A model generated the notes under the pieces. The model searched no databases and was not told the DNA's origin. It saw only the letters and a program-made list of their open reading frames with translations. From Cupriavidus basilensis (GTDB lineage: Bacteria; Pseudomonadota; Gammaproteobacteria; Burkholderiales; Burkholderiaceae), in NCBI RefSeq assembly GCF_000876015.1, contig NZ_BBQM01000004.1, positions 186,001 through 250,000 on the forward strand: 64,000 bases of DNA, in the 5' to 3' direction. The stretch's first letter is position 1; each line of letters begins with the position of its first letter. The position numbers and the translations under genes are program-made. This document shows positions 1,922 to 24,949 of the stretch, in pieces.

Positions 1922-3262
1922 TCAGGGCTGGACGTCGAAGTTGATCGTCCAGGTCTGCTGGCTGCTGTTCGAGTTCGGGTCGGCGTAGGCGATCTTCGTC
2001 AGGTGGAAGCGCGCATACGTGGCACCCTCGCCGCCGCGGATCAGGCCGCCGGCGTCCGGATTGGCGCTGATCAGGTGGGCCACCGCCGGCAGGCCGTTCG
2101 CCGCGGCCGCCGCGGCGGTCGGGAAGTACGAGTACCAGCCGTAGTTCAGCGGGTTCGGGTAGGCGCCGGTGTAGGTGGGATTGAGCAGCGATGCCGTCGC
2201 ATCCTTCTTCCACTGGCTGGCCGCGGTGGGCAGGCTCATGTCGGCGGCGGTCAGGTCGGCCAGCGTGGTGGTCACGCTGTTGACGTTGGTGAACGCCGAT
2301 GCCACGGGCTTGTTCGACGCGTCATAGAACCCGGCGGGCGTCTTGCCCAGGAAGCCGGCCACCGTGCCGGTGCCCGATTCGCCGCCGTTGAGCTTGACGT
2401 TGTAGCGGTTGAACGCGATGTGCCACGGACCCGTGGCCGTGGTTTCCACGCGGTTGACCAGATCGTAGTAGACCCAGTCGGCCGAGGCGTTGACCGTCGC
2501 CGTGTACACGGTGCCCGGGGCGCTGCGGTCGACGAAGCGGAAGCTCGGATATCCGGAGGTGGTGCCGCCCGGGCCGCCGTAGTAGCCGGTGATCTGCAGC
2601 GCGAACACGGGCGCCGCCACGGTGCCGGTGGTATCGGGCAGCGCGCTGTTGGTGGTGATCAGGAACGTGCGGAAGGTGGGATACAGCGAGTGGTCGGTGG
2701 CCGCGCCGGTCACGCCGTACTCGAACACGGCCGAACCGATGTCGTTGCTGCCCGCGAACACGCCGCTGGCCGAATCCTTCAGGAACACCGCGGCGGGCAG
2801 GGCGCCGTTGACCGGGTCGATGGTCGCGTTCTTCCACGCCGTCAGCGCGGTCCAGGTGTGGTCGAAGGGGCTGCCGAAGGCGCCGCCGTTGCCGGTGCCG
2901 GTGGTGCCGCTGTTCGTCCACAGCGTGGCGGTGCGCCCGCCCGTGTCGGTCTTGACCTTCAGGTCCCACGCGGTGCCGGTGCAGGCCGTCTCCGCCTTGG
3001 TGTTGAAGTCGTAGCAGAGCGACGCGCTGGCCGCCGGCAGCGCGAAGGTCCATTCGGCCGACTGCGTGAATGCCGTGGTCGCGGCGGGCGGGGTGGTGGT
3101 GCCGCCGCCCGTGGTGCCGTTGCCCCCCGTGCCGCCGGTGCCGCCGGTGGTGGTGCCGCCGTCGTCGCCGCCGCCGCCGCAGGCGGCCAGCGCCAGGGCG
3201 AGCGTGATCGTGCCGAGCGCGCCGGGCAGCCGGCGGCGCAGTGAGAGAGTGTCATTCATCAT
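1922..3262 (-). CDS. HmuY-like surface lipoprotein of the heme operon
   Basis: This is a 446-residue predicted lipoprotein. The signal peptide ends in a lipobox, LALAAC, followed by a Gly/Thr/Asp-rich linker to about residue 65. The body has two similar stretches in which aromatic-rich strands precede a WDLK- or WHIAF-type strand: one around SLCYDFNTKAETACTGTAWD and one around WVYYDLVNRVETTATGPWH. That layout resembles the HmuY heme-binding fold, here apparently duplicated. Position between the TonB receptor (27 bp gap) and hmuS (16 bp gap) supports a role in capturing heme or heme proteins at the cell surface. The family call comes from motif memory and context and is less certain than those of its neighbours. 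Its start has two adjacent ATG codons. Confidence 0.6.
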   Translation of the reverse strand: MMNDTLSLRRRLPGALGTITLALALAACGGGGDDGGTTTGGTGGTGGNGTTGGGTTTPPAATTAFTQSAEWTFALPAASASLCYDFNTKAETACTGTAWDLKVKTDTGGRTATLWTNSGTTGTGNGGAFGSPFDHTWTALTAWKNATIDPVNGALPAAVFLKDSASGVFAGSNDIGSAVFEYGVTGAATDHSLYPTFRTFLITTNSALPDTTGTVAAPVFALQITGYYGGPGGTTSGYPSFRFVDRSAPGTVYTATVNASADWVYYDLVNRVETTATGPWHIAFNRYNVKLNGGESGTGTVAGFLGKTPAGFYDASNKPVASAFTNVNSVTTTLADLTAADMSLPTAASQWKKDATASLLNPTYTGAYPNPLNYGWYSYFPTAAAAAANGLPAVAHLISANPDAGGLIRGGEGATYARFHLTKIAYADPNSNSSQQTWTINFDVQP

Positions 3263-3289
3263 GATGCGTGTTTCCCCATTGATTTCTTG

Positions 3290-5275
3290 TTAGCGGGCGA
3301 CGTCGACGTTGAACCGCGCGCCCAGGTAGATAAAGCGCCCCGCCACAGGCCCGAAGTCACTGGCATTCGCGAAATCGCGTTGACGATTGAAGAGGTTGTT
3401 GACGCCGGCGAATGCGGTGACGCTGCGGCCGATCTTCTGGTTCAGCACGAGGTCGAGCGTGGCCCAGCCCGGCGAGCGCGCGGCGGCGGCGGAGTCGGTC
3501 AGCTCGCTGCTCTGGAAGCGCGCGCGGGTCGACAGCTCGGTGGACGGAAAGACGCGCCAGTCGATGCCCGCGCGGCCCATGTGGCGGGGCCGGCGGGTCA
3601 GCTCGGTGCCGGTGTTGAGGTCTTCGGTGTCGGTGAAGGTGTAGGCCGCCGTCAGGTTGAGCTGGTTCGTGGCACGCCAGCGCAGCGACGTCTCGGCGCC
3701 CTGCGTCCGGGCGCGCGCCACGTTCCGGTACGTATAGACCGCGATGCCGTTGACCATCGAGAAGTTGGTCATGTCGGTCTGGATCAGGTCCGTGACGCGG
3801 TTGTAGAACAGGTTGGCATCGAGCGTCACGCGCTCGCGCCAGGTGAGCTGGCCGCCGAACTGGAAGCTGTTCGACGACTCCGGCTTCAGGTCCGGGTTGC
3901 CCAGCACCATGTAGCCCAGCGAGCTGTGGTCGAACAGGTAGTGGCGTTCCTTGAGGTTGGGCACGCGGTAGCCCTGGCCATAGTTGGCGCGCAGCACGCC
4001 TTTCCAGGTGTCGCTGGAGAGCAGGTTGGCGCGCAGGCCCACCTTGGGCGCGAAGTGGCTGCCGAAGTCGGAATCGTGCTGGCCGCGCAGCCCGACGATC
4101 ATTTCCCAGGTGTCGTTGAACAGGATGTCGTTCTGCACGTAGAGCTCGCCCGCGTGGCGCTCGGCGCTGCCGGCGCCGGTCAGCTCCGACGCCCCGTTGA
4201 CGTTCTGGTTCAGCGTCTCGCGGTGGAAGTCGCCGCCGAACTGCCAGAGCTGGCGGTACCACGCCGGCATGTCGAACTGGGCGGAGACATGGTCGGTCTG
4301 CTGCGAGGAATCGCGCGTGGCGGTCTGGAAGCCGTTCGAGTATTCGCGGGAGGTGCTGTCGTAGGTCTCGTGCACGCCGGCCAGCCGGGCGCGCACGCCG
4401 TTGGCGAATCCCCATTGCCCGCCATAGGTGTAGCGGTTGCGGTCGATGTCCTCGGTCTTGCGCTGCGGCACGTAGTTCGGCGGCGCGTAGTACTGGTAGC
4501 GCTGCTCGTCCGTCTCGCGGTAGGCGCTGGCGTCGAGCCAGAACTTGCCCGTCGCGGTGGGGAGCCATTCGAGCCGGCCCGCGTATTGCCCGCGGCGGAC
4601 CTTGTCGCCGTGGCGCGTCCAGTCGTCCGCGTCGACGGCGTAGCCCTTGTTGTCCAGCGCGTCCGCGCTGATGCGCGCCCGGAACTGCTCGGTGCCGCCC
4701 TCGACCCGGACATTGCCATGCAGCACGCCCGGCGAACCGTCGGCGTTCTGGCCGCCGTAGGTGCCGGTATCGGCGGTGACCGCGCCCGAGAGGCCCTTGG
4801 CGACCGGCCGCGTGATCACGTTGATGACGCCGCCCATCGCCGAGCTGCCGTACTGGGCCGAGCTGGCGCCCTTGACCACTTCGACGTGGTCGACCTCGGT
4901 GAGCAGGTATTGCGAGACGTCGACCGTCGAGCCGGTGCTGGCCGTGATGGGCAGGCCGTCGATCAGGATCAGCACCTGGTCGCTGGTCATGCCCTGCAGC
5001 GTGACTTCATAACCCGACTTGCCGTGGATCTCGCGCAGCTGCAGGCCGGGCACGTTCTCCAGCGCGTCCTTGAGCGTGCGCGCATGGGTGCGCTCGATTT
5101 CCTGGTGGTCCACCACCTCGGTGCGGATCGGCGTCTCGTCCAGCGTCTTCTCGCTGCGGGTGCCGGTGACGACCACCGTCGGCAGCGGGTCTCCCGGCGC
5201 GGCCTGTTGCGCCCGCGCGTGCGGCGTAGCGGAAAGTAGGGTGCTGGCGACGACGGCAAGGTATTTCAGACGCAT
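3290..5275 (-). CDS. hmuR: TonB-dependent heme/hemoglobin receptor
   Basis: This is a 661-residue outer-membrane receptor with a signal peptide ending near ARAQ, a TonB box (TVVVTGTRSEK), and a plug domain with the TLKDALENVPGLQLREI and QVLILIDGLPI signatures. The beta-barrel runs to a terminal strand ending in an aromatic-rich motif (FIYLGARFNVDVAR). Between about residues 430 and 470 it has the FRAP/NPNL-type region of heme receptors, read here as GYRVPNLKER, a His in FDHSSLGYM, then NPDLKPE. It is first in the heme operon and follows a Fur box by about 50 bp. The general receptor class is certain; heme as substrate follows from the motif and from hmuS and hmuT downstream. Confidence 0.88.
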   Translation of the reverse strand: MRLKYLAVVASTLLSATPHARAQQAAPGDPLPTVVVTGTRSEKTLDETPIRTEVVDHQEIERTHARTLKDALENVPGLQLREIHGKSGYEVTLQGMTSDQVLILIDGLPITASTGSTVDVSQYLLTEVDHVEVVKGASSAQYGSSAMGGVINVITRPVAKGLSGAVTADTGTYGGQNADGSPGVLHGNVRVEGGTEQFRARISADALDNKGYAVDADDWTRHGDKVRRGQYAGRLEWLPTATGKFWLDASAYRETDEQRYQYYAPPNYVPQRKTEDIDRNRYTYGGQWGFANGVRARLAGVHETYDSTSREYSNGFQTATRDSSQQTDHVSAQFDMPAWYRQLWQFGGDFHRETLNQNVNGASELTGAGSAERHAGELYVQNDILFNDTWEMIVGLRGQHDSDFGSHFAPKVGLRANLLSSDTWKGVLRANYGQGYRVPNLKERHYLFDHSSLGYMVLGNPDLKPESSNSFQFGGQLTWRERVTLDANLFYNRVTDLIQTDMTNFSMVNGIAVYTYRNVARARTQGAETSLRWRATNQLNLTAAYTFTDTEDLNTGTELTRRPRHMGRAGIDWRVFPSTELSTRARFQSSELTDSAAAARSPGWATLDLVLNQKIGRSVTAFAGVNNLFNRQRDFANASDFGPVAGRFIYLGARFNVDVAR

Positions 5276-5626
5276 GGGGGGGCGGAACCGGCCGCGACAG
5301 ATCCGGTAGATACAAAGGGATGCCGAATGATAATGATTCTCGTCTGCATCTTCCGTTAAGATTGCTTAATGCAGTTTCACCAGCGCTGTTTCCCCGGCGC
5401 AGGCCGGCATGGCCCTGCAAAAGAAGGTGCGTGCCCGGCCGCGCGGCGGCGGCTGGCACGCATGCCGGCCCGGCGGCGCCGCTCCGGTGCGGCGTACGGC
5501 ACGTGCGCGGCTTTTGCACTATCCTCAGGGGGCTTTGCGGCGCGCGCCCACCGGGCGGTGGACGGTGCCGCCGGCCGGCCGCGCCTTGCGCGGACCAGGG
5601 CAAACAGACCCAAGGAGTTCCCCCCA
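5276..5626. other. Divergent intergenic region, heme operon / iorAB
   Basis: This 351-bp gap separates the leftward heme operon from the rightward iorAB pair. Its left part is unusually AT-rich and holds the Fur box and the TTAAG/CTTAA inverted repeat. The right part, about 5370-5610, is GC-rich; open frames there lack ribosome sites and recognisable motifs. AAGGAG at 5612-5617 is the ribosome-binding site of iorA. I cannot assign a clear -35/-10 pair for either direction. Confidence 0.6.
5325..5343 (-). promoter_or_regulatory. Fur box of the heme operon
   Basis: The 19-bp site reads GAATGATAATGATTCTCGT. It matches the 7-1-7 Fur consensus with a perfect left arm (TGATAAT) and five of seven bases in the right arm. 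It lies about 50 bp upstream of the receptor ATG, where bound Fur-Fe would block transcription of the heme operon. A 14-bp inverted repeat, TTAAG-ATTG-CTTAA, sits just beyond it at 5356-5369. Confidence 0.8.
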
Positions 5627-6085
5627 ATGACCACCCTAGACATCAATGGCAAGCCATTGCAGGTCGACGTCGACCCCTCCACGCCGCTGCTGTGGGCGCT
5701 GCGGGACAGCCTCGGCATGACCGGCACCAAGTTCGGCTGCGGCATCGCCTCGTGCGGCGCGTGCACGGTGCACGTAAACGGCCAGCCCACGCGCAGTTGC
5801 GTCACGCCGGTTTCGGCGGCGCAGGGCGTGCGCATCACCACCATCGAAGGCGTGGCCGGCGACAAGGTCGGGCGCGCGGTGCTCGACGCCTGGATCAAGC
5901 ATGACGTGGCCCAGTGCGGCTACTGCCAGAACGGCCAGGTCATGAGCGCGACAGGGCTGCTGCGCAACAAGAAGCACCCGACCGACGCCGACATCGACCA
6001 GGCGATGGCGGGCAACGTGTGCCGCTGCGGCACCTACCAGCGCATCCGCGCCGCCATCAAGGATGCGGCGCGCGCGCTGGCATAG
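5627..6085 (+). CDS. iorA: Isoquinoline 1-oxidoreductase-type 2Fe-2S subunit (IorA-like)
   Basis: The 152-residue product is the small electron-transfer subunit of a molybdenum hydroxylase. The N-terminal plant-type ferredoxin cluster is in [15 protein letters not shown] with a further Cys in TRSC; the second [2Fe-2S] domain has QCGYCQNGQ and [10 protein letters not shown]. All eight Cys ligands are visible. Many longer frames start upstream, but this ATG follows AAGGAG at a good distance and begins directly with the ferredoxin fold. It is 10 bp upstream of the catalytic subunit gene. The natural substrate cannot be told from sequence; isoquinoline is only the family name. Confidence 0.88.
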
Positions 6086-6095
6086 GGAGACCATC

Positions 6096-8369
6096 ATGCG
6101 AATCCAGAATCTCGAAGCGCTGGTCGGCAACGGCTGGCGCACGGACGCAGTCGCCGGCACCGTGGACGCCGCCGCCGCCGTCGAATCCCCGGCCACGCTC
6201 GGCCGCCGCAGTTTCCTCAAGCTCGCCGGCTTTGCCGGCGGCGGCCTGGCGCTCGGCGTGCTGCCGCTGTCCGCCGCGCAGGCGCAGGAAGGCGGCGCGC
6301 CCAAGGCGCCGCCCTCCGCGCCGCAGGCCTTCGTGCTGATCGCGCCGGACAACACGGTCACGGTGGCGGTGAACCGCCTCGAATTCGGCCAGGGCGTGCA
6401 CACCGCGCTGCCGATGGCGCTGGCCGAGGAGCTCGACGTGGACTGGCGCAACGTGCGCGCCACGTTGGCGCCCGCCGGCGACGCCTACAAGGACCCCGCC
6501 TTCGGCATGCAGATGACGGGCGGCTCCTCCGCGCTCAACCATTCCTTCCAGCAATACCGCGAGCTCGGCGCGCGCGCCCGCGCCATGCTGGTGGCCGCGG
6601 CGGCCAGGCAGTGGCAGGTCGAGCCCGCCAGCTGCCAGGTGGCGCTCGGCGTGGTGACTTCCGGCAGCCACCGCGCCACCTACGGCGAGCTGGCGCAGGC
6701 GGCGATGGCGCTGCCGGTGCCGCAGCAGGTGGCGCTGAAGGATCCCGCGCAGTTCAGGATCATCGGCAAGCCCACGCCGCGCCTGGACGCGCGCGGCAAG
6801 CTGGAATCCACCACCGCGTTCGGCATCGACACCCGCCTCGAAGGCATGAAGGTGGCGCTGGTGGCGCGCCCGCCGCGCTTCGGCGGCAAGGTGAAATCGT
6901 TCAACGCCGACAAGGCGCGCGCGATCAAGGGCGTGGCCGACGTCATGCTGGTGCCGGTGGACCGCGGCGGCACCGGCGTGGCGGTGGTGGCCGACGGCTA
7001 CTGGCCCGCCAGGCAGGGGCGCGACGCGCTCGAGATCGTGTGGGAAGACGCCGGCTCGAAGGTCACGTCCAAGGACCTGTTCGCCGACTACCGCAAGCTC
7101 GCCGCGCAGCCCGGCGCGGTGGCGGTGGCGGGCGACGTCGGCGCGCTCGCGGGCGCGGCGCGCACCATCGACGCCTATTACGAGTTTCCCTATCTCGCCC
7201 ACGCGCCGATGGAGCCGCTGAACTGCACCATGCAGGCCGAGCTGTCGGGCAAGACGGTGCGCTCGGTCAAGGTCTGGGTCGGCTCGCAGTTCCAGACCGT
7301 GGACCAGGCCGCCATCGCGCGCACGCTGGGGCTCAAGCCCGAGCAGGTCACGCTCAGCACCATGATGGCGGGCGGCGGCTTCGGCCGGCGCGCGGTGCCC
7401 ACCTCCGACTACGTGGTCGAGGCGGCCAACGTGCTGCAGGCCTGGATCCGGAATGGCCATGCCGAGCCGCTCAAGGTGATGTGGAGCCGCGAGGACGACA
7501 TCCGCGGCGGCTACTACCGTCCGCTGCACCTGCATCACGCCCGCATCGGCACCGATGCCCGCGGGCAGGTGGTGGCGTGGGACCACACCATCGTCGGGCA
7601 GTCGATCCTCACCGGCACGCCGTTCGAGGCCTTCGCGGTCAAGGGCGGCGTCGACGGCACGATGGTCGAGGGCATCGCCGAGAACGACTACGGCTTTCCG
7701 CTGCGCCTGAGCGCGCACCACCCGCAGGTGGACGTGCCGGTGCTGTGGTGGCGCTCGGTGGGCAACACGCACACCGCCTTCGTCAAGGAGACCCTGATCG
7801 ACGAGATCGCGGCGGGCGCGCGCCAGGACCCGGTGGCGTTCCGGCTCGCGCGCCTCGACGAGGCCAAGCACGCGCGCCACCGCGCGGCGCTGCAGCTGGC
7901 GGTGCAGAAATCCGGCTACGGCAAGCGGCGCCTGCCCAAGGGCCAGGCCTGGGGCGTGGCCGTGCACGAGTCGTTCGGCACCGTGGTGGCCTACGTGGCG
8001 GAGGTGTCGCTGGTGAAGAACGAGCCGCGCGTGCACCGCGTCACGGCCGGCGTGCATGCCAACCGCGTGGTCAACCCGATGTCCGCCGAGGCGCAGGTCC
8101 AGGGCGCGTGCATCTTCGGGCTGGCCGCGCTGCGGCCGGGCTTCGCCATCGAGATCGAGAACGGCGTGGTGAAGAACAGCAATTTCCCCGACTATCCGCC
8201 CGTGCGCATGCCCGACGCGCCGCCGGTGGACGTGTTCTTCGTGCCCTCCGAAGACCCGCCCACCGGCCTGGGCGAGCCGGGTGTGCCGCCGATCGCCCCG
8301 GCGGTGGCCAACGCGCTGTTTACGCTCACCGGCAAGCGCCAGCGGCAGTTGCCGTTCGTGCTGGCCTGA
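6096..8369 (+). CDS. iorB: Molybdopterin-binding catalytic subunit (IorB-like), Tat-exported
   Basis: This 757-residue protein is the catalytic subunit of a xanthine-dehydrogenase-family hydroxylase that hydroxylates N-heterocycles or aldehydes with water as oxygen donor. A twin-arginine signal ([13 protein letters not shown], about residues 35-48) indicates export of the folded, cofactor-loaded complex with IorA. Family signatures include [32 protein letters not shown], and the C-terminal [17 protein letters not shown], which carries the Glu of the active site. The start is the ATG after AGGGAGACC; earlier frames are extensions. No maturation factor (XdhC-like) or cytochrome subunit lies nearby, so cofactor insertion and electron transfer partners must be encoded elsewhere. 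It converges on the anti-sigma gene with an 18-bp gap. Confidence 0.88.
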
Positions 8370-8387: not shown

Positions 8388-9248
8388 TCAGCGCGCGCGG
8401 CCGTCCGCGGCCGCGCGCCAGGCCTGGGTGAAGCGCAGCAGGTCGTCGGCGGAAGCATCGGTGACGGCGGCATAGCGCATGCCGTCCGCTTCCCAGCGGG
8501 CCAGCTGGTAGCCCTGGTGCGATTCGATGGCGGGCGGCAGGGCGGCGGGATCGGCCCCGGCCGCCTTTTTTTCGTCGGCCAGCGGCAGCACGAACATATC
8601 GATGGGATGCTGGCTGTCGCGGTACACCAGCACCGCCACCGCGCGGCCATGCACGTAGTCGAGCCGCCCGCCGGCCAGCGGGAAGCCCTGCGCGGCGAGG
8701 TTGCGCACCGGCGGCGCGTAATCGAGCCGGCCGTTGAACCACGGCTTGACGGTATGGCGGTCCGACGAAGCCACGTCGATGGCGTGGCCGGACAGCAGCG
8801 CGCGCACGTGGCTGCTGACCACCTCGCGCGCCACCGTCGGTTCGGCGGCGTCGCGCAGCGCGTACTGCGCCATGCCGATGCCGAGCGCGGCCACCGTCAC
8901 CGCGGCCATCGCGGCATTGGCGGCCGGGCCCCAGGCGAAATGGCGGCGCAGCGGTTGCCACCAGCGCCACCAGCCGGCGGCGCCCGGCGTGCCGCGCGGC
9001 CGCGCCGCGGCGGCGCCGTCCGCCGGGGCCGCGTCGAGCGCGGCCAGCACCCGCACGCGCAGCGCCGGACTGGCGCGGTGGTACGGCGCGTGCGCGCGCA
9101 GCGCGGCGCGCATCTCGCGCAGCCGCGCCAGCCGCGCGCGGCACTCGGGGCATTGCGCCAGGTGGCGCTCCACGCGCAGCGTGTCGCCCGCGCCGGATTC
9201 GCCGTCCGCGCAGGCTTGCAGCAGCATGCCGATCTCATCGCAGTTCAT
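8388..9248 (-). CDS. Zinc-finger anti-sigma factor
   Basis: The 286-residue product has a cytoplasmic zinc-binding anti-sigma (ZAS) domain at its N-terminus, with HLAQCPEC matching the HxxxCxxC motif. One membrane segment lies around residues 107-127 ([19 protein letters not shown]), and a periplasmic sensor domain of about 155 residues has no motif I recognise. It would hold the ECF sigma factor at the membrane until a periplasmic signal is received. Its ATG overlaps the sigma gene stop (ATGA), a standard coupling of sigma/anti-sigma pairs. The signal is unknown; the cupredoxin in the divergent operon hints at copper or redox stress. Confidence 0.85.
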
Positions 9249-9898
9249 GGCCCGTCTCCCCGGCGGGAAGCGGCGGGAAGCGGCGCCGCCGCGCTCCTGC
9301 CTGTCGTGGTGGCCGGCGCCGCGCCGCCCGCCGCGCGCGCGCCCTGCATTTCCTGCGCGCGCTGCGCCAGCACCGCCGCCGCCAGCAGTTTGCGCGCGCG
9401 CGCCAGGCGCGACATCACGGTGCCCAGCGGAATCTCGGCAATGGCGGCGATGTCGCGGTAGGGCAGGTCCTCCAGCTCGCGCAGCACCAGCACCTCGCGG
9501 AACGCCAGCGGCAGGCGCGCCAGCGCCACGTGCAGCAGGCGCACGTCCTCGGCGCGCAGCAGCCATTGCTCGGGGCTGTCGCCGTGGCCGTCCTGCCAGC
9601 CGGGCAGCGCGGCGCCGTCGAAATGCGCGTCGTCGTAGCCGGCGCTGGCGCCTTCGCCCGGCTGCCGGCGCTTGCGCCACGCGGTAAACCAGGTATTGCG
9701 CACGATCGCCAGCAGCCACGCGCGCGGCTGGTCGCCGCGGAAGCTGTCGAAGAAGCACAGCGCGCGCAGGCAGGCCTCCTGCACCACGTCGTCGGCCTCC
9801 GTGGCGCTGCCGGAGAGCCAGCGCGCCAGGTTGTAGGCGGCATCGAGATGCGGCAGCACGAGTTCGTCGAATCGGCGGCGCCGGTCGGCAGCGTCCAC
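9245..9898 (-). CDS. ECF RNA polymerase sigma factor
   Basis: This is a 217-residue sigma-70 family factor of the extracytoplasmic-function class. Region 2 is seen in ATEADDVVQEACLRAL and FRGDQPRAWLLAIVRNTWF; region 4 is seen in LPLAFREVLVLRELEDLPY, then IAAIAEIPLGTVMSRLARA. I chose the GTG at 9898, preceded by AAAGGAG, because it starts just before the region 2 fold; longer frames run into the promoter. It is transcribed with the anti-sigma gene. A GGAATAAAC / GGTAT promoter lies 54 bp upstream, and a matching copy faces the opposite operon, which suggests autoregulation and a shared regulon. Confidence 0.88.
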   Translation of the reverse strand: MDAADRRRRFDELVLPHLDAAYNLARWLSGSATEADDVVQEACLRALCFFDSFRGDQPRAWLLAIVRNTWFTAWRKRRQPGEGASAGYDDAHFDGAALPGWQDGHGDSPEQWLLRAEDVRLLHVALARLPLAFREVLVLRELEDLPYRDIAAIAEIPLGTVMSRLARARKLLAAAVLAQRAQEMQGARAAGGAAPATTTGRSAAAPLPAASRRGDGP

Positions 9899-9951
9899 GT
9901 CACTCCTTTGGCTGGGCGCGCGCACGGCAAGGCCCGTGCGCGCGATCCCGT

Positions 9952-9978
9952 ATACCGGAGACGCGTCGAGTTTATTCC
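9952..9978 (-). promoter_or_regulatory. Putative ECF promoter of the sigma/anti-sigma operon
   Basis: Read on the minus strand, GGAATAAAC (9978-9970) is followed by 13 bases and GGTAT (9956-9952). GGAAT with a 16-17 base gap to GGTAT is the layout of ECF-dependent promoters. It ends 54 bp before the sigma GTG. The same two elements with the same gap occur on the other strand at 10022-10048. Confidence 0.7.
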
Positions 9979-10021
9979 CGCTTTCCGGCCCGCGCGCGAA
10001 AAATAAATCCACCGCGCGGCC

Positions 10022-10048
10022 GGAATAAACGCGGCGCGGCATCGGTAT
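10022..10048 (+). promoter_or_regulatory. Putative ECF promoter of the phosphoesterase/cupredoxin operon
   Basis: GGAATAAAC (10022-10030) is followed by 13 bases and GGTAT (10044-10048), ending 41 bp before the phosphoesterase ATG. Elements and spacing are identical to the divergent copy at 9952-9978, whereas the 13-base spacer differs at several positions. That is what is expected if both are read by the same sigma factor rather than being a recent duplication. Confidence 0.7.
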
Positions 10049-10089
10049 GACAGGCATCCCCACATCACATCTGTCACGGAGGTGCCGGA

Positions 10090-10974
10090 ATGCAGCAACG
10101 ATCATGGAAGCGGCGCGACTTTCTCGGCCTGGCCGCCTGCGCCGGCGGCGCGGTATTCGCGCAGGCCCTGCCCGGCTGGGCCGCCGGGCGCGACGAGGCG
10201 TTCTACTTCGTGCAACTGTCGGACGCGCACTGGGGCTTCCAGGGCCCGCCCAACCCCGACGCGCGCGGCACGCTGCCCAAGGCCGTGGCCGCCGTCAACG
10301 CGCTGCCGCAGCCGCCCGACTTCCTGATGTTCACCGGCGACCTCACCCACACCACCGACGACGCCGCCGAGCGCCGCCGCCGCATGCGCGAGTTCCAGGC
10401 CATCGTCGCCGGGCTCAAGGTGCCGGTGGTGCACCTGATGCCGGGCGAGCACGACGCCAGCCTCGACCAGGGCGCCGCCTACCAGGAACTGTTCGGCCCC
10501 ACGCACTACGTGTTCGACCACAAAGGCATGCACTTCATCGTGCTCGACAACGTCTCCGACCCCGCCGGCCGCGTCGGCGAGGCCCAGCTCGGCTGGCTCG
10601 CCGACGACCTCGCGCGCCAGCCGCGCGACGCGCGCATCGTGGTGTTCACCCACCGCCCGCTGTTCGACCTCTACCCGCAATGGGACTGGGCCACGCGCGA
10701 CGGCGCGCAGGTGATCGAGCGCCTGATGCCCTACGCCAACGTCACGGTGTTCTACGGCCACATCCACCAGGAGCACCACCACATGACCGGCCACATCGCC
10801 CACCACGCGGCGCGCTCGCTGATGTTCCCGCTGCCCGCCGCCGGCTCCCAGCCCCAGCGCCAGCCGGTGCCGTGGGACCCGGCCCGGCCCTACCAGGGCC
10901 TCGGCTGGCGCGAAGTGCAGGCCGGCCGGCCCGGCGGCGAGTTCGGCATCGACGAAAAGCCGGTGGCCGGCTGA
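10090..10974 (+). CDS. Tat-exported calcineurin-like metallophosphoesterase
   Basis: The 294-residue protein has a twin-arginine signal (KRRDFLGLAACAGG) and so should act in the periplasm. The metal-binding motifs of the calcineurin-like phosphoesterase fold appear in order: LSDAHWG (D-x-H), FTGDLTH, PGEHD, FTHRPLF and GHIHQEHHH. In most family members the third motif is GNHD; here Glu replaces the metal-bridging Asn. It is the first gene of an operon with the cupredoxin and is controlled by the putative ECF promoter 41 bp upstream. The substrate is not known; hydrolysis of a phosphoester is inferred from the fold only. Confidence 0.82.
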   Translation: MQQRSWKRRDFLGLAACAGGAVFAQALPGWAAGRDEAFYFVQLSDAHWGFQGPPNPDARGTLPKAVAAVNALPQPPDFLMFTGDLTHTTDDAAERRRRMREFQAIVAGLKVPVVHLMPGEHDASLDQGAAYQELFGPTHYVFDHKGMHFIVLDNVSDPAGRVGEAQLGWLADDLARQPRDARIVVFTHRPLFDLYPQWDWATRDGAQVIERLMPYANVTVFYGHIHQEHHHMTGHIAHHAARSLMFPLPAAGSQPQRQPVPWDPARPYQGLGWREVQAGRPGGEFGIDEKPVAG

Positions 10975-11017: not shown

Positions 11018-11389
11018 ATGACGAAGACAGAAACGAAACCCGGCCGCCGGCGCGCGCTGCGCTGCCTGCTGGCGCTGGCGGCGGGCACGCCGCTGTTGCA
11101 CAGCACCGCCGCCGCGCCGCGCGTGATCAAGGTGCATGCGCGCAAGTTCATCTTCACGCCCGACCGTATCTCACTGCGCGTGGGCGAGCCGGTGGTGTTC
11201 GAGCTGACCGCGCAGGATGTGGTGATGGGGTTCAGCGTGCCGGATCTGGGGATTCGGGCCGATCTGCCGCCGGGGCAGGTGGTGAGGCTGGCGGCCACGC
11301 CCGCCAGGGCGGGGACGTTTGGGTTTTTATGCGATATTTTTTGTGGGTCGGGGCATGAGACTATGAATGGGGTGATTGAGGTTATGTGA
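11018..11389 (+). CDS. Small exported CuA-like cupredoxin
   Basis: This 123-residue protein has an Arg-rich signal sequence (GRRRALRCLLALAAG) and a single cupredoxin domain resembling the CuA domain of cytochrome oxidase subunit II. CDIFCGSGHETM matches the C-x3-C-x3-H-x2-M ligand loop. The upstream ligand His, found in DVxHSF/HGF contexts, is Met here (DVVMGFSVPDLGIRADLPPG), and the Glu between the cysteines is Ile. It may therefore bind copper as an altered CuA or type-1-like site, or act as a copper carrier. It lies 43 bp after the phosphoesterase and probably shares its ECF-controlled transcript. Confidence 0.75.
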   Translation: MTKTETKPGRRRALRCLLALAAGTPLLHSTAAAPRVIKVHARKFIFTPDRISLRVGEPVVFELTAQDVVMGFSVPDLGIRADLPPGQVVRLAATPARAGTFGFLCDIFCGSGHETMNGVIEVM

Positions 11390-20941: not shown

Positions 20942-21879
20942 AAGGCCACCCGGTTGCGGCCGGCCGCCTTGGCGCGGTAGAGCGCCTCGTCGGCCTGGTG
21001 CACGAGCTGGTCCGCGCTGGCGGTCGCGTGGCAGGCCTGCGCCACGCCCACGCTCGCGCTGACGGCGATGGCGTGGCCGGCGTAGCGCACCGTCTCGGCG
21101 CGGATGGCGCCGCGGATCCGCTCCGCCACCGCGATGGCGTCGGCAAACGCCGTGTTCGGCAACAGCACGGCGAATTCCTCGCCGCCGTAGCGGGCCACCA
21201 CGTCGCGGTCGCGCAGGCAGGCGGCGACCCGCTGCGCCACCGCCTTGAGCACCGCGTCGCCGCCCGGGTGGCCGTGGTCGTCGTTGATGCGCTTGAAGTG
21301 GTCCAGGTCGAAGATCAGCACGGAGAGCGCGCGGCCGGACTTGCGCCAGCGGTGGAATTCCTCCTGCAGGCGGTCCTCGATATAGCGGCGGTTGTAGAGC
21401 CCGGTCAGCGCGTCGCGGATCGACGCCTCGCGCAGCGCGTCGACGGCCTCGTCGCGCGCGCGCTGCGCGATGGCGAGCTCGGTCGCGTCGAGGATGGTCA
21501 CGCACACGGCGATGACCTCGTCGCCTTCCATGAGCGGCAGGAACTCGCAGTCCTGCCGCATCCATTCGAAGTCGCACGTGACCGGCAGGTCGTGCGGGAA
21601 GCGGAACAGGTAGGGCCGGTGCTCCCACGAGGTGAACGCGCTGATCTTCAGCAGGAACACCGATTCGAGCGTGCGCCGCAGCCACGCCGCGGGCAGCTCG
21701 GGAAACAGGCCGAGCAGCCGCTGGCCCAGCGCGGCTTCCGCGCTCACGCCGCTGCGGTCCGCCATGAAGTGGTTCCACAGCGCGATGCGGTGCTCGCGGT
21801 CCACCACGAACACGCCGCAGCCCATGCGCGCCAGCGCCAGTTCGTGCAGGCGCGCCTGCTGGGACGGTTCGAGAGGCAT
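20938..21879 (-). CDS. PAS-GGDEF diguanylate cyclase
   Basis: This 313-residue protein has a PAS sensor domain (about residues 15-130, with GVFVVDREHRIALWNHFMAD) followed by a GGDEF domain starting at DALTGLYNRRYIEDRL. The active-site motif is GGEEF in ARYGGEEFAVLLPN, and the inhibitory I-site RxxD is present as RDRD five residues upstream, so c-di-GMP synthesis with product inhibition is likely. No membrane segment is seen, so it is cytoplasmic. It lies 47 bp downstream of the CheC-like gene on the same strand, suggesting a small signalling operon. Confidence 0.88.
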   Translation of the reverse strand: MPLEPSQQARLHELALARMGCGVFVVDREHRIALWNHFMADRSGVSAEAALGQRLLGLFPELPAAWLRRTLESVFLLKISAFTSWEHRPYLFRFPHDLPVTCDFEWMRQDCEFLPLMEGDEVIAVCVTILDATELAIAQRARDEAVDALREASIRDALTGLYNRRYIEDRLQEEFHRWRKSGRALSVLIFDLDHFKRINDDHGHPGGDAVLKAVAQRVAACLRDRDVVARYGGEEFAVLLPNTAFADAIAVAERIRGAIRAETVRYAGHAIAVSASVGVAQACHATASADQLVHQADEALYRAKAAGRNRVAF

Positions 21880-21926
21880 GTCGGGGGCTCCGGGCGTTGC
21901 CGATGCTGCGGGCGGATGCCGCCGTG

Positions 21927-22634
21927 CTACAGGCTGTCGAGGGTCGCGTCGAGCGCCGCGCACAGCCGCCCGAACGCGCTGCGCGCCAGCAGCGCGGCCA
22001 GGCAGGCCCGGAAGCGGCGGTCCTCGATGCGGACGTGCAGGTCGAGCAGCAGCGCGCTGCCCGCGGCCGGATTGCCCGACCTGGCGATGGCGCCGACGAT
22101 CTGCGCCGCGTCGGTCTCGCGCGGCACGGAGAAGGCCGGCACGCGGCCGAGCTGCCCGAGCAGGCCGCAGACGCACGCGCCCGCGAGCACGTTCGCCACT
22201 TCGGGCAGCAGGCCGCGCAGCGCGGTCCCGCCGCCTTGGCCGCTCTCGCCGCACTCGCCGCTTTCGCCGCTCTCGCTGGCCAGGTCCTGGCGCCCGTAGA
22301 GCGCCTCGCAAAGTTCGCGCGCGCCGTCGCGCGCGAAGAACACCAGGCTCTCGCCGGCGATGTCAGCGCGGAAGCTCTGGCGGAAGGCCACCATGCCGCG
22401 CATGGCGCCGAGCCGCCGCTCGATTTCCTCCTTGAGCCGCTCCGGGTCGGCCACGCCGATGCGCGGGATCGACAGCGTGACGTGGCGGCCCAGCAGGCAG
22501 GCGAGCCTGGCGCCGGCCACGCCGATGCCGGCGTTCGCCAGCGCCTGCAGCGCATCGTGCCGCGCCGCGCCGAGCACGGCCGGCGCGCGGCGCGAACTGC
22601 GCCGGTCGCGGGCGCCGTGGCCGCGTTCGGTCAT
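21927..22634 (-). CDS. CheC-like protein (CheY-phosphatase family)
   Basis: The 235-residue protein resembles CheC/CheX phosphatases. Its N-terminal half has ALQALANAGIGVAGARLACLL followed by VTLSIPRI, and a second similar helix is LLPEVANVLAGACVCGLLGQL, where the Glu and Asn lie at the positions used by CheC to dephosphorylate CheY. Such proteins act on a response regulator; none is encoded next to it. A short Glu/Ser/Gly repeat (SESGESGECGESG) interrupts the middle. I chose the ATG at 22634, which overlaps the stop of a well-placed leader ORF; an in-frame ATG at 22646 is also possible. It pairs with the PAS-GGDEF gene 47 bp downstream. Confidence 0.65.
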   Translation of the reverse strand: MTERGHGARDRRSSRRAPAVLGAARHDALQALANAGIGVAGARLACLLGRHVTLSIPRIGVADPERLKEEIERRLGAMRGMVAFRQSFRADIAGESLVFFARDGARELCEALYGRQDLASESGESGECGESGQGGGTALRGLLPEVANVLAGACVCGLLGQLGRVPAFSVPRETDAAQIVGAIARSGNPAAGSALLLDLHVRIEDRRFRACLAALLARSAFGRLCAALDATLDSL

Positions 22635-22720
22635 GGCCGCGGCCATGCGCGCCGGCTGGCGGCAGCTTGCGCGGCACTGGCGTCGCGGACAAGCATTGGG
22701 GGTGGGACTGGGCGTGCCAT
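22631..22720 (-). CDS. 29-codon leader ORF ahead of the CheC-like gene
   Basis: ATG at 22720 follows GGAGGAG at ideal distance, the best ribosome-binding site in this neighbourhood. It begins MARPVPPPMLVRD and ends at a TGA that overlaps the CheC-like ATG (22634) as ATGA. It could be a leader peptide that couples translation. Alternatively, a single-base sequence error separates the true N-terminus from the CheC-like frame. The peptide has no recognisable motif. Confidence 0.4.
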   Translation of the reverse strand: MARPVPPPMLVRDASAAQAAASRRAWPRP

Positions 22721-23316
22721 GAATCTCCTCCGATCTTGACTGGGCGGCACGCGGTGGGGCTCCGCATGGGATTTGCCGGCGGCATTCGCGGCTGAACCGG
22801 CAATCCAGGCCGGTAAACAGTGACGGCGCCGGAATATCCGCGCGCCGCTCTCAATTAGATGAGGATGGTGGCGAAGAGTAAAGCGATTTGTTTTTATGCG
22901 GCATCGGTGGCGCGGCGGCGACCGGCGCGAGAAATACGGCGCGCGAAATTGGGATTATTCTTAAACGATGACGATGCCGGAAGACGGCCGTTGCCTGCGC
23001 GGCAGTCGTCGGGCGGAGGCGGCGATGCGGCGGAAATGTGGCGGCAATACGGCGAAAGCGCGGGGGAATGTCCGCGTCCGGATGGCGAATGCGTCGAAGG
23101 CGGTTGACAGGGTGCCGGCACGGCATCGTCCAATCCCTGTTTATTTGATGAGATTTGTCTTAATTTTTCTTAAAGGGTTTTCCATGAAAATGGCGAACCA
23201 AAAACAGGGAATTCCCATGATCCGATTCCGATTCACGGGAAATGGGCCGGTTATCCGCCTTTGTTCCCCGTTTTGATTCGCGCGCCGCCCGCCACCTCCG
23301 CGGCGGCCGGCGCGCG
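22721..23316. other. AT-richer intergenic region, possible small transcript or 30-residue ORF
   Basis: This 596-bp gap lies upstream of the CheC-like gene and downstream of the oxidoreductase stop. From 23130 to 23280 it is much richer in A and T than its surroundings. TTGACA occurs at 23104-23109. Inverted copies TCCCTGTTT (23134-23142) and AAACAGGGA (23202-23210) enclose a 30-codon frame start (ATG 23184, AAAGGG six bases before, stop at 23276), and a palindrome GGGAATTCCC lies at 23207-23216. Whether this is a small protein, a regulatory RNA or only a promoter region is undecided. Confidence 0.4.
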
Positions 23317-24321
23317 CTAGCGCCGCGCGATTTCCACCACGAGCTTGCCCCGCGCCGTGCCGGTCTCGATGGCGCGGTGCGCCTCGATGGCGTCGTCCAG
23401 GCCGAAGCGCCGCGGGTCGACGCGCACGGCGAGCTTGCCGGCGTCGGCCAGGCGCGCGGCCTCGCGCAGGATCGCGCCGTGGCGCGCGCGGCCGCGGCCG
23501 GTCAGCAGCGGGAGCAGCGTGAAGACGCCCGAGTATGTCGCGGCGCGCAGCGACAGCGGCGCCAGGCTGTGCGTGCCCCAGCCCAGGCAGCTCACCACGT
23601 GGCCGCCGCAGGTACGCGCGGCGAGGAAGGCGTCGTCCAGCACCTTGCCGCCGACCGTGTCGTAGACCACGTCGAAGCCGTCGCCGCCGGTGTACTGGCC
23701 GACATACTGCTCGACCGTGACGGTGGCGAAGTCGATCGCGGTCGCGCCATAACCTTCGATGATGTCCCGGCTGGCGGCCGAACCGGTGGCATGGACCCGC
23801 GCGCCGGCCGCGCGGGCGATCTGCACCGCGACATGCCCCACGCCGCCGGCGCCGCCGTGCACCAGCACCGTCTGCCCGGGCTGGACGCCGGCCCGGTCCA
23901 CCAGCCCCTCCCACGCGGTGATGAACACCAGCGGCAGCGCGGCCGCCTCGCGCATCGAGAGCCGGGCCGGCTTGCGCGCGAGCAGGTCGGCGTCGACCGC
24001 GGCATACTCCGCCAGCGAGCCCTGCACGCCGCCCACGCCGCCGGTCATGCCGTAGACCTCGTCGCCGGGCGCGAAGCGGGTCACGCCCGGCCCGACCGCC
24101 TCCACCACGCCGGCCAGGTCGAGGCCGAGCACGGCCGGCAGCGGCTGGCGCGCATGCGCGGCGCTGCCGGCGCGGATCTTGGTGTCGAGCGGGTTGACGC
24201 CGCTGGCGAGGATGCGGACCAGCACCTCGCCGGGGCCGGCCTGCGGCCTGGGCAGGCTGGCAACCCGGAACGGCGCGTTGGCGCGCTCGGCGATCAGGGC
24301 CTGCATGGTGGCTTGGGACAT
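23317..24321 (-). CDS. Zinc-type/quinone oxidoreductase of the MDR family
   Basis: The 334-residue NADPH-dependent oxidoreductase has the GroES-like N-terminal domain (LVRILASGVNPLDTKIRAGS, LGLDLAGVVEAVGPGVTRF) and a Rossmann domain with the nucleotide-binding motif VLVHGGAGGVGHVAVQIA. The catalytic-zinc Cys/His pattern of true alcohol dehydrogenases is absent, so it belongs with quinone reductases and enone reductases. The ATG at 24321 follows GGAG by six bases. Two palindromes lie 60-100 bp upstream and may be operators. The physiological substrate is unknown. Confidence 0.85.
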   Translation of the reverse strand: MSQATMQALIAERANAPFRVASLPRPQAGPGEVLVRILASGVNPLDTKIRAGSAAHARQPLPAVLGLDLAGVVEAVGPGVTRFAPGDEVYGMTGGVGGVQGSLAEYAAVDADLLARKPARLSMREAAALPLVFITAWEGLVDRAGVQPGQTVLVHGGAGGVGHVAVQIARAAGARVHATGSAASRDIIEGYGATAIDFATVTVEQYVGQYTGGDGFDVVYDTVGGKVLDDAFLAARTCGGHVVSCLGWGTHSLAPLSLRAATYSGVFTLLPLLTGRGRARHGAILREAARLADAGKLAVRVDPRRFGLDDAIEAHRAIETGTARGKLVVEIARR

Positions 24322-24407
24322 GGGGGACTCCGTTGGCAATGTCGTGGTGGATGTCCCATTCTTGGGCATGCCCGGATGAAGATAAATCAACTTATCGGCA
24401 TCCCGTC

Positions 24408-24423
24408 CATGCAGATCTGCATG
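24408..24423. promoter_or_regulatory. Perfect 16-bp palindrome upstream of the oxidoreductase gene
   Basis: CATGCAGATCTGCATG is self-complementary over its full length and lies 87 bp upstream of the oxidoreductase ATG. A second symmetrical site, GATAAATCAACTTATC, is 12 bp closer. Such pairs suit binding by a dimeric repressor of the oxidoreductase, but no cognate regulator is adjacent. Confidence 0.4.
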
Positions 24424-24511
24424 CGTGCGGCAGCGCCCTCGGTGGCGGCGCCGGCGTGGCCGGCCAACAAATTCGCGCGATCCAAGGGTAAACACGTATC
24501 AAGTCGCTGAC

Positions 24512-24540
24512 TTGAAAACGTAAACCCCCGTCCCTATAAT
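24512..24540 (+). promoter_or_regulatory. groESL promoter
   Basis: TTGAAA at 24512-24517 and TATAAT at 24535-24540 are separated by 17 bases, a near-consensus housekeeping promoter. The -35 reads CTTGAAA and the region before the -10 is rich in C, so sigma-32 may also use it. The -10 runs into the CIRCE operator. Confidence 0.75.
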
Positions 24541-24566
24541 TAGCACTCGTTGGGTTAGAGTGCTAA
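24540..24566. promoter_or_regulatory. CIRCE operator (HrcA binding site)
   Basis: TTAGCACTC (24540-24548), nine bases, then GAGTGCTAA (24558-24566) is a perfect CIRCE inverted repeat. HrcA bound here represses groESL until heat or misfolded protein occupies GroEL. The site overlaps the last base of the -10 and lies 93 bp before the groES ATG, so it would also be at the start of the mRNA. Confidence 0.92.
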
Positions 24567-24658
24567 CAGCGCTCTCTCAGCCTTCCGATTCTGCTGGCAG
24601 CTAGCCAAAGCGGCCAGTTTTGTGAACGTAAAATCACTTTTTGTACCAAGGAGTCCGT

Positions 24659-24949
24659 ATGAATCTGCGTCCTTTGCACGACCGCGTGATCGTCAAGCGT
24701 CTGGACAATGAAACCAAGACCGCTTCCGGCATCGTGATTCCCGACAATGCTGCCGAAAAGCCTGATCAAGGTGAAGTGCTGGCCGTGGGCCCCGGCAAGA
24801 AGGATGACAAGGGTGCTTCGATCGCGCTCGACGTCAAGGTGGGTGACCGCGTGCTGTTCGGCAAGTATGCCGGCCAGGCCGTGAAGGTGGATGGCCAGGA
24901 ACTGCTGGTCATGCGCGAAGAAGACATCATGGCCGTGGTGAACAAGTAA
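24659..24949 (+). CDS. groES: Co-chaperonin GroES
   Basis: The 96-residue GroES (Hsp10) forms the heptameric lid of the GroEL folding chamber. [20 protein letters not shown] is the standard start, the mobile loop [20 protein letters not shown] is complete, and the protein ends [10 protein letters not shown]. Size is that of the family. The ATG at 24659 is preceded by AAGGAG; an upstream in-frame ATG at 24641 would add six residues and lies before the ribosome site. It is followed by groEL after 38 bp. Confidence 0.97.

Follow-up and report, generated by a model that had tools for sequence, protein, structure and literature searches.

Two opposed promoters, predicted to be read by one ECF sigma factor, between a sigma/anti-sigma operon and a phosphoesterase/cupredoxin operon of Cupriavidus

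An operon for an ECF sigma factor and its anti-sigma factor and an operon for a phosphoesterase and a cupredoxin point away from each other in Cupriavidus basilensis, and the same promoter-like sequence occurs on both strands of the short region that separates them. The question is whether these two copies are promoters of the neighbouring sigma factor. The comparisons described below, made over the whole stretch of 64,000 nucleotides analysed here (the window) and over related genomes, indicate that they very probably are conserved promoters, predicted to be read by this sigma factor, which would likely switch on its own operon and the divergent phosphoesterase/cupredoxin operon.

A sequence-only reading had described GGAATAAAC-N13-GGTAT on both strands of a 97-bp stretch, and this was confirmed, the elements of each copy being exactly 13 bases apart. 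The promoter toward sigma/anti-sigma, GGAATAAAC-TCGACGCGTCTCC-GGTAT, occupies 9952-9978 of the minus strand (-35 GGAATAAAC at 9970-9978, -10 GGTAT at 9952-9956, GT core at 9955-9954), and that toward phosphoesterase/cupredoxin, GGAATAAAC-GCGGCGCGGCATC-GGTAT, occupies 10022-10048 of the plus strand (-35 at 10022-10030, -10 at 10044-10048, GT core at 10045-10046). Counted from the -35 element, both read GGAATA, then 17 bases, then GT. GGAATAAAC-N13-GGTAT had no match in 100 dinucleotide-shuffled versions of the window; in the whole Cupriavidus genome (7,826,077 bases) the exact pattern with 12 to 14 bases between the elements was present only in the two copies of the window, and its backwards-read control had no match. 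The 43-bp gap between both -35 elements (9979-10021) holds an AT tract, AAAAATAAAT (plus strand, 9999-10008), flanked by GC-rich arms. By eye, a TTTATTTTT-like tract was seen between the promoters at 9999-10008 of the window and in L003, L043, L047, L051, L060, L072 and L082, and was absent from the corresponding intergenic regions of L004-L009; one of the promoters may use it as an UP-type element.

Profile matches for the ECF sigma, zf-HC2, phosphoesterase and cupredoxin bore out the gene arrangement that had been proposed, with sigma/anti-sigma on one side and phosphoesterase/cupredoxin on the other. The sigma gene (9245-9898, minus strand, 217 aa) starts with GTG at 9898, preceded by AAAGGAG, and its product is of the NF009185/PRK12533 type, with 289.4 bits against NCBIfam NF009185 (PRK12533), above the curated cut-off of 248. 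Sigma70_r2 was found at residues 13-78 and Sigma70_r4_2 at 121-172, the other Pfam matches being region-2/region-4 type models, so that only sigma regions 2 and 4 are present, as expected of an ECF (group 4) sigma factor. The adjacent zinc-finger anti-sigma factor that goes with this assignment is encoded at 8388-9248 of the minus strand; it has a zf-HC2 head (28.7 bits vs. a Pfam cut-off of 22.2, with 8388-9236, without the first 4 residues, as query), and inspection of the sequence revealed one hydrophobic segment, followed by a periplasmic-type C-terminal part, and a start that overlaps the sigma stop. Further along on this side (3290-8369), a TonB-dependent receptor gene and a two-subunit molybdopterin oxidoreductase were noted, the latter facing the anti-sigma gene; a molybdopterin oxidoreductase also neighbours the locus in L003-L009.

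On the opposite side, the calcineurin-like metallophosphoesterase gene (10090-10974, plus strand) starts with ATG at 10090 behind GGAGGT, and its leader, KRRDFLGLA, is taken to be of the twin-arginine type. The protein bears only a weak resemblance to cyclic-AMP phosphodiesterases (46.7 bits, with a profile cut-off of 225) and, among PDB entries, to Rv0805 (37.7 bits). The copies of the promoter end 53 (left) and 41 (right) bases ahead of the sigma and phosphoesterase start codons, respectively. The cupredoxin gene (11018-11389, plus strand) encodes at its end a COX2-like, CuA-type string, CDIFCGSGHETM, which presumably corresponds to the C-x3-C-x3-H-x2-M pattern found in COX2-type copper sites. 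Both cysteines, the H and the M were kept in all 15 loci that gave a relative, and the position that is presumably histidine in COX2 was M in 13 of the 15 and H in two (Collimonas). Two types of copper protein were seen beside the phosphoesterase, CuA-like in Cupriavidus and some Paraburkholderia, and plastocyanin/azurin-like (CUP2-type, e.g. L027, L300) in Burkholderia and others.

The search for homologues of the window sigma gave at least 594 stretches and at least 318 relatives, and the analysis continued with the best 80. On the coding strand, within 400 bp upstream, GGAATAAA-N13..15-GGTAT was found in 15, 47 and 70 of these best 80 loci at zero, up to one and up to two mismatches, where the remaining sequence of these loci would predict 0.06, 0.22 and 0.58; as the counted rows are related species, these counts overstate independence. 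Exact GGAATAAA lay upstream in 68 of the 80, with T of the GT core invariant among them and G present in 67, most spacer columns being weakly conserved, and the distance from GGAATA to [CG]GT peaked at 17 (57 sites), with 22 as the next commonest (13 sites). A conserved promoter sequence precedes the sigma operon, whose autoregulation is predicted. No site with up to two mismatches was detected within 400 bp in ten of the 80 loci (L013, L027, L029, L032, L035, L042, L045, L048, L052 and L054). Among these, L013 and L052 carry GGAATAAA with a poorer -10, and L035, L048 and L054 (Pandoraea) have the site about 1.65 kb upstream of sigma, before a co-directional phosphoesterase, whereas L045 has none.

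Within the genus, 60 Cupriavidus genomes were drawn and the sigma was present (E <= 1e-35) in 34. Of 30 sigma loci scanned, 29 had GGAATA-N17-GT within 500 bp before the sigma match (exception L267); upstream of the phosphoesterase the same pattern was found in 29 of 30 loci, the exception being L377, with GGAATTTC, and GGAATAAA-N15-GT in 22 of 30. The facing pair was kept in 27 of the 30 sigma loci and absent from L260, L265 and L267; in L263 (G012) the gene on the far side of the pair is not the phosphoesterase. These 30-locus sets partly overlap the best 80 (e.g. L003/G047, with the same two sites). Exact GGAATAAA-N14-GGTAT was detected at 43 sites in 28 of the 60 genomes, with no match of the reversed control in any of them, and its presence followed that of the sigma, with 25 of 34 genomes having the sigma vs. 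3 of 26 lacking it (p 1.6e-6). The three sigma-less genomes share one identical site located elsewhere, GGAATAAACGTTTCATGTATCAGGTAT (G045:C38:73013, G051:C1:1551968, G054:C57:93337). This conservation marks GGAATAAAC-N13-GGTAT as a selected element.

The genes also occur together: sigma and phosphoesterase (the latter at E <= 1e-30) were both found in 33 of the 60 genomes and neither in 25, each being alone in a single genome (Fisher 1.3e-14). The sigma without phosphoesterase belongs to G012, a 54% complete genome. In G045, the phosphoesterase is in two frames and adjoins a stretch that matches the C-terminal portion of the anti-sigma (L383 about 2798-4308, G045:C22), and neither a sigma match nor GGAATA-N17-GT was found within the 8 kb fetched; this looks like a case in which regulator and promoters were lost together. 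In G009 and G049, the phosphoesterase lies away from the sigma and has the site before it; the sigma is also preceded by a site in G049, but not in G009.

Separation of the two operons is widespread among the relatives. In around half of the best 80 loci, sigma/anti-sigma lie between a LysR-type gene (cluster in 42) and ribosomal-protein genes (S6-like cluster in 39), the neighbours on the ribosomal side being presumably rpsF, priB, rpsR, rplI and dnaB, and in 41 of the 80 no phosphoesterase matching that of the window was found within the fetched flanks. When 29 Burkholderiaceae and related genomes were searched for GGAATAAA-N14-GGTWW (starting from 30 loci, with L028 left out), 47 sites were detected in 24 of them, compared to 8 for the reversed control. 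Many of the extra sites precede genes other than phosphoesterase or sigma: in 17 stretches around such sites, a phosphoesterase was downstream in four (L298, L299, L300 and L309), a sigma in one (L314), and the targets of the remaining 12 were other or unclear. Genes downstream of motif sites were called by crude ORF picking, and of 18 clusters those of the sigma, the phosphoesterase and the lipoprotein of a second ECF system (C29, see below) were followed. In G077, G081, G084 and G076, one site precedes a phosphoesterase/copper-protein operon. Further GGAATAAA-N14-GGTWW sites were seen in clusters in Trinickia and Paraburkholderia (L302 4456-9453, G083:C80; L303 4427-5041, G067:C40; L304; L305), some of them before small secreted-looking proteins, and are possibly targets of another ECF sigma. 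In L194 (4002-4092, G012:C170) and L187 (G006:C42), GGAATAAA is followed by a related small protein of secreted appearance in place of the phosphoesterase, and across from the L194 site is a sigma of the same type as in the window.

The phosphoesterase of G084 was then used as query in 37 genomes, drawn from 39 of the 41 loci (all but L028 and L068, and then without L055), and matched at E <= 1e-50 in 36 of them, G089 being without. In the 30 loci scanned (30 genomes, Burkholderia and Paraburkholderia), GGAATAAA-N15-GT was found 79-146 bp before the phosphoesterase match in every case, with a single other occurrence in the 212,322 strand-bases elsewhere in those loci; as 12 of the 30 phosphoesterases are Burkholderia proteins that are 92-100% identical, they represent fewer independent lineages than 30. 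Eight of 11 further phosphoesterase matches were scanned (three partial ones in G091 and G093 were left out) and seven had the site, L352 showing GGAATAATC..GGTAT. All 37 genomes have a sigma match, and in 27 of the 30 cases none lies on the contig of the phosphoesterase, which in the other three (G061, G091 and G093) is within 6 kb of a second sigma. These unlinked phosphoesterase operons that carry the motif core are, at the level of sequence comparison, the strongest test of the predicted promoters.

The same data bear on two readings in which the copies are not a pair of promoters serving both operons. The copies could stem from a local duplication without regulatory meaning for the right-hand gene. 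The sequence-only reading had argued for selection and against duplication because the spacers differ; the window's own spacers, however, have 8 of 13 positions in common, which makes this a weak argument from the window alone and even speaks for duplication. The exclusion of a recent duplication nevertheless stood on other grounds, as the window copies agree at only 10 of 44 positions outside elements and spacer (18 of 57 when the spacer's 8 are included; composition predicts 27%), and across the 27 facing pairs, that of the window among them, the number of identical spacer positions ranges from 2 to 9 of 13, with a mean of 5.4. The motif core before the unlinked phosphoesterases contradicts duplication as well, which is thus extremely improbable. 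Alternatively, the inverted repeat of GGAATAAAC, an arrangement present in the window and in those 27 of 30 Cupriavidus loci, could be the operator of a dimeric regulator. Against this, the gap between the arms is not fixed, since it ranges from 35 to 93 bp (-35 to -35) among the facing pairs; where the operons are unlinked in Burkholderia, a single copy precedes each; and every copy comes with a GGTAT at a constant distance and, as seen in the window, ends shortly before a start codon, making an operator very improbable. Both readings were rejected on the gap and spacer data: a varying gap together with divergent spacers points to two promoters kept independently, which neither duplication nor a fixed operator explains.

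That the motif defines a searchable regulon, as had also been suggested, holds, but this genome yields little beyond both window promoters. With up to two mismatches, GGAATAAA-N14-GGTAT gave 25 sites, the window's two included, vs. 12 for the reversed control, and GGAATAAAC-N14-GT with up to one mismatch gave 18 vs. 23, so that no wider regulon stands out and the idea of one in this genome was rejected. Exact GGAATAAAC-N14-GT was found three times, at the two window sites and before the C29 operon (G000:C29 about 21,120-24,886; L156 121-3886), which encodes a Lipoprotein_15 protein, an ECF sigma, an anti-sigma and MsrP-like and MsrQ-like proteins; these last names are our assumption from Oxidored_molyb and Ferric_reduct matches, and the C29 effectors are presumed to be periplasmic.

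The C29 system resembles that of the window in its -35, GGAATAAAC, in the equal distance to GT and in an anti-sigma with zf-HC2, although just under the cut-off (21.4 vs. 22.2 bits). It differs in that its sigma groups with RpoE6 of Sinorhizobium meliloti, its genes run in one direction instead of forming divergent operons, and its -10 is GTGTTTACT, an invariant run in the GGAATA-N17-GT sites found 535-589 bp before the C29 sigma in 30 of 30 genus orthologues scanned. Therefore, the two ECF systems share the -35 and differ in the -10. The shared element raises another explanation, namely that a different sigma, such as the ECF26-like C29 sigma, is the main or an additional reader of the window pair, which would still be genuine ECF promoters; the 16 NF009185 matches in this genome, the window sigma included, likewise mean that another sigma could read the sites. 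Against it stand the different -10, with GGTAT at the window pair, and the fact that exact GGAATAAA-N14-GGTAT tracks the window sigma, as described above, whereas the C29 sigma matches (E <= 1e-25) in 51 of the 60 Cupriavidus genomes. Such reading by another sigma appears unlikely, though it keeps a real share of the probability. The preferred reading, two opposed promoters of one ECF sigma, as first proposed from the window, is supported by the conservation of the sites, the unlinked phosphoesterase operons with the motif core and the co-occurrence of the genes, and from these we infer dependence on the window sigma.

The window promoters agree with the consensus of S. meliloti ECF26 promoters, -35 GGAATA and -10 GT, given in section 7 of PMC6180224. 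In the promoters of its Table 1, where bold and underlining are invisible in the version used, our own reading gives GGAATA-N17-GT for the rpoE1 and rpoE4 operons and N16 for others. RpoE1, RpoE4 and RpoE6 are also like the window system in having sigma upstream of anti-sigma. In contrast, the S. meliloti -10 is GTCT and that of the window GGTAT, and the targets are a sulfite oxidase or a serine protease instead of phosphoesterase and cupredoxin, although the sorT-sorU-azu2 operon controlled by RpoE4 holds a pseudoazurin gene (PMC6180224, PMC3511301). The regulons of these sigmas are likewise mostly small, RpoE6 having 40 targets (PMC6180224, PMC3511301). As for gene context, a neighbouring lipoprotein or serine-protease gene is given for ECF26 in PMC6180224; the neighbours at the window are phosphoesterase, cupredoxin and molybdopterin oxidoreductase, with no such gene among them, and a lipoprotein neighbour was found at C29 instead.

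Among the S. meliloti plasmid sigmas, RpoE6 was the best match to the window sigma (69.2 bits; RpoE8 54.0, RpoE5 53.5). However, a tree of 31 sigmas grouped RpoE6 (ECF26) with RpoE5 (ECF15) and the C29 sigma (96/97) and put the window sigma into a separate clade (94/90) together with sigmas from Burkholderiaceae, Oxalobacteraceae and rhizobial plasmids; RpoE6 is the sole ECF26 member of this tree, with RpoE1, RpoE3 and RpoE4 left out. As the promoter fits and the tree, with its one ECF26 member, places the sigma elsewhere, an assignment to ECF26 was rejected, and the window sigma is regarded as working like an ECF26 switch without being filed as one. Two other systems share single features with the window: the ECF29 sigma RpoE8 of S. 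meliloti lies beside a blue copper protein, amicyanin, but its promoter is GGGAAC/GCATCCAA (PMC6180224), and its sequence is not close to the window sigma; and ECF16 BcrS-AbcS with bcrXQP has one promoter type for the sigma and its target periplasmic-repair operon, but that promoter is (T/C)GTAAC-N17-CGAA (PMC8315932). The literature searched gave no paper joining an ECF sigma with metallophosphoesterase and cupredoxin, or ECF26 with metallophosphoesterase, no mention of PRK12533, and no GGAATAAA with an ECF sigma as the start of a word, a search that is blind to the string inside longer sequences. Looser searches, covering titles and the beginnings of abstracts, gave nothing on the phosphoesterase/cupredoxin pair, and the text available of Cupriavidus metallidurans papers had no word starting with "phosphoesterase", longer words escaping this search.

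On this basis, a mechanism can be proposed. In cells at rest, the sigma would be kept inactive by the membrane anti-sigma until released by an envelope signal; oxidative or copper-related stimuli are our guess, because of the cupredoxin and of the S. meliloti sulfite and amicyanin cases. Transcription by RNA polymerase loaded with the sigma would then begin near 9944 (minus strand) and near 10056 (plus strand), leaving leaders of approximately 45 and 33 bases, if the distance from GT to the start is that of the SMa0142 and SMc04049 promoters, 10-11 bases as marked by the lower-case start letter in Table 1 of PMC6180224. The sigma level would rise by positive feedback, with the co-transcribed anti-sigma as a brake, and the phosphoesterase and the copper protein would be supplied, two effectors of presumed chemistry for both of which export to the periplasm is predicted. 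A broader picture is possible, if doubtful: an ECF lineage outside the ECF26 clade, with a two-operon regulon (itself and an exported phosphoesterase/copper protein) whose GGAATAAA promoters were kept through relocation between replicons, which has its -35 in common with the cell's own MsrPQ-type ECF26 system, the -10 (GGTAT vs. GTGTTTACT) keeping the two distinct, with partial cross-fire possible between both envelope responses, the phosphoesterase/cupredoxin pair being an undescribed periplasmic damage response.

In summary, a regulator, two promoters and a pair of effectors were predicted from sequence, and the prediction survives the natural separation of regulator and target. A so far uncharacterised sigma family of Cupriavidus and Burkholderia thereby gains a candidate target and a searchable promoter, and the phosphoesterase/cupredoxin pair a putative regulatory link, none having been found in the literature searched. 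The locus also offers a case in which to study what keeps two ECF sigmas distinct when their -35 is the same.
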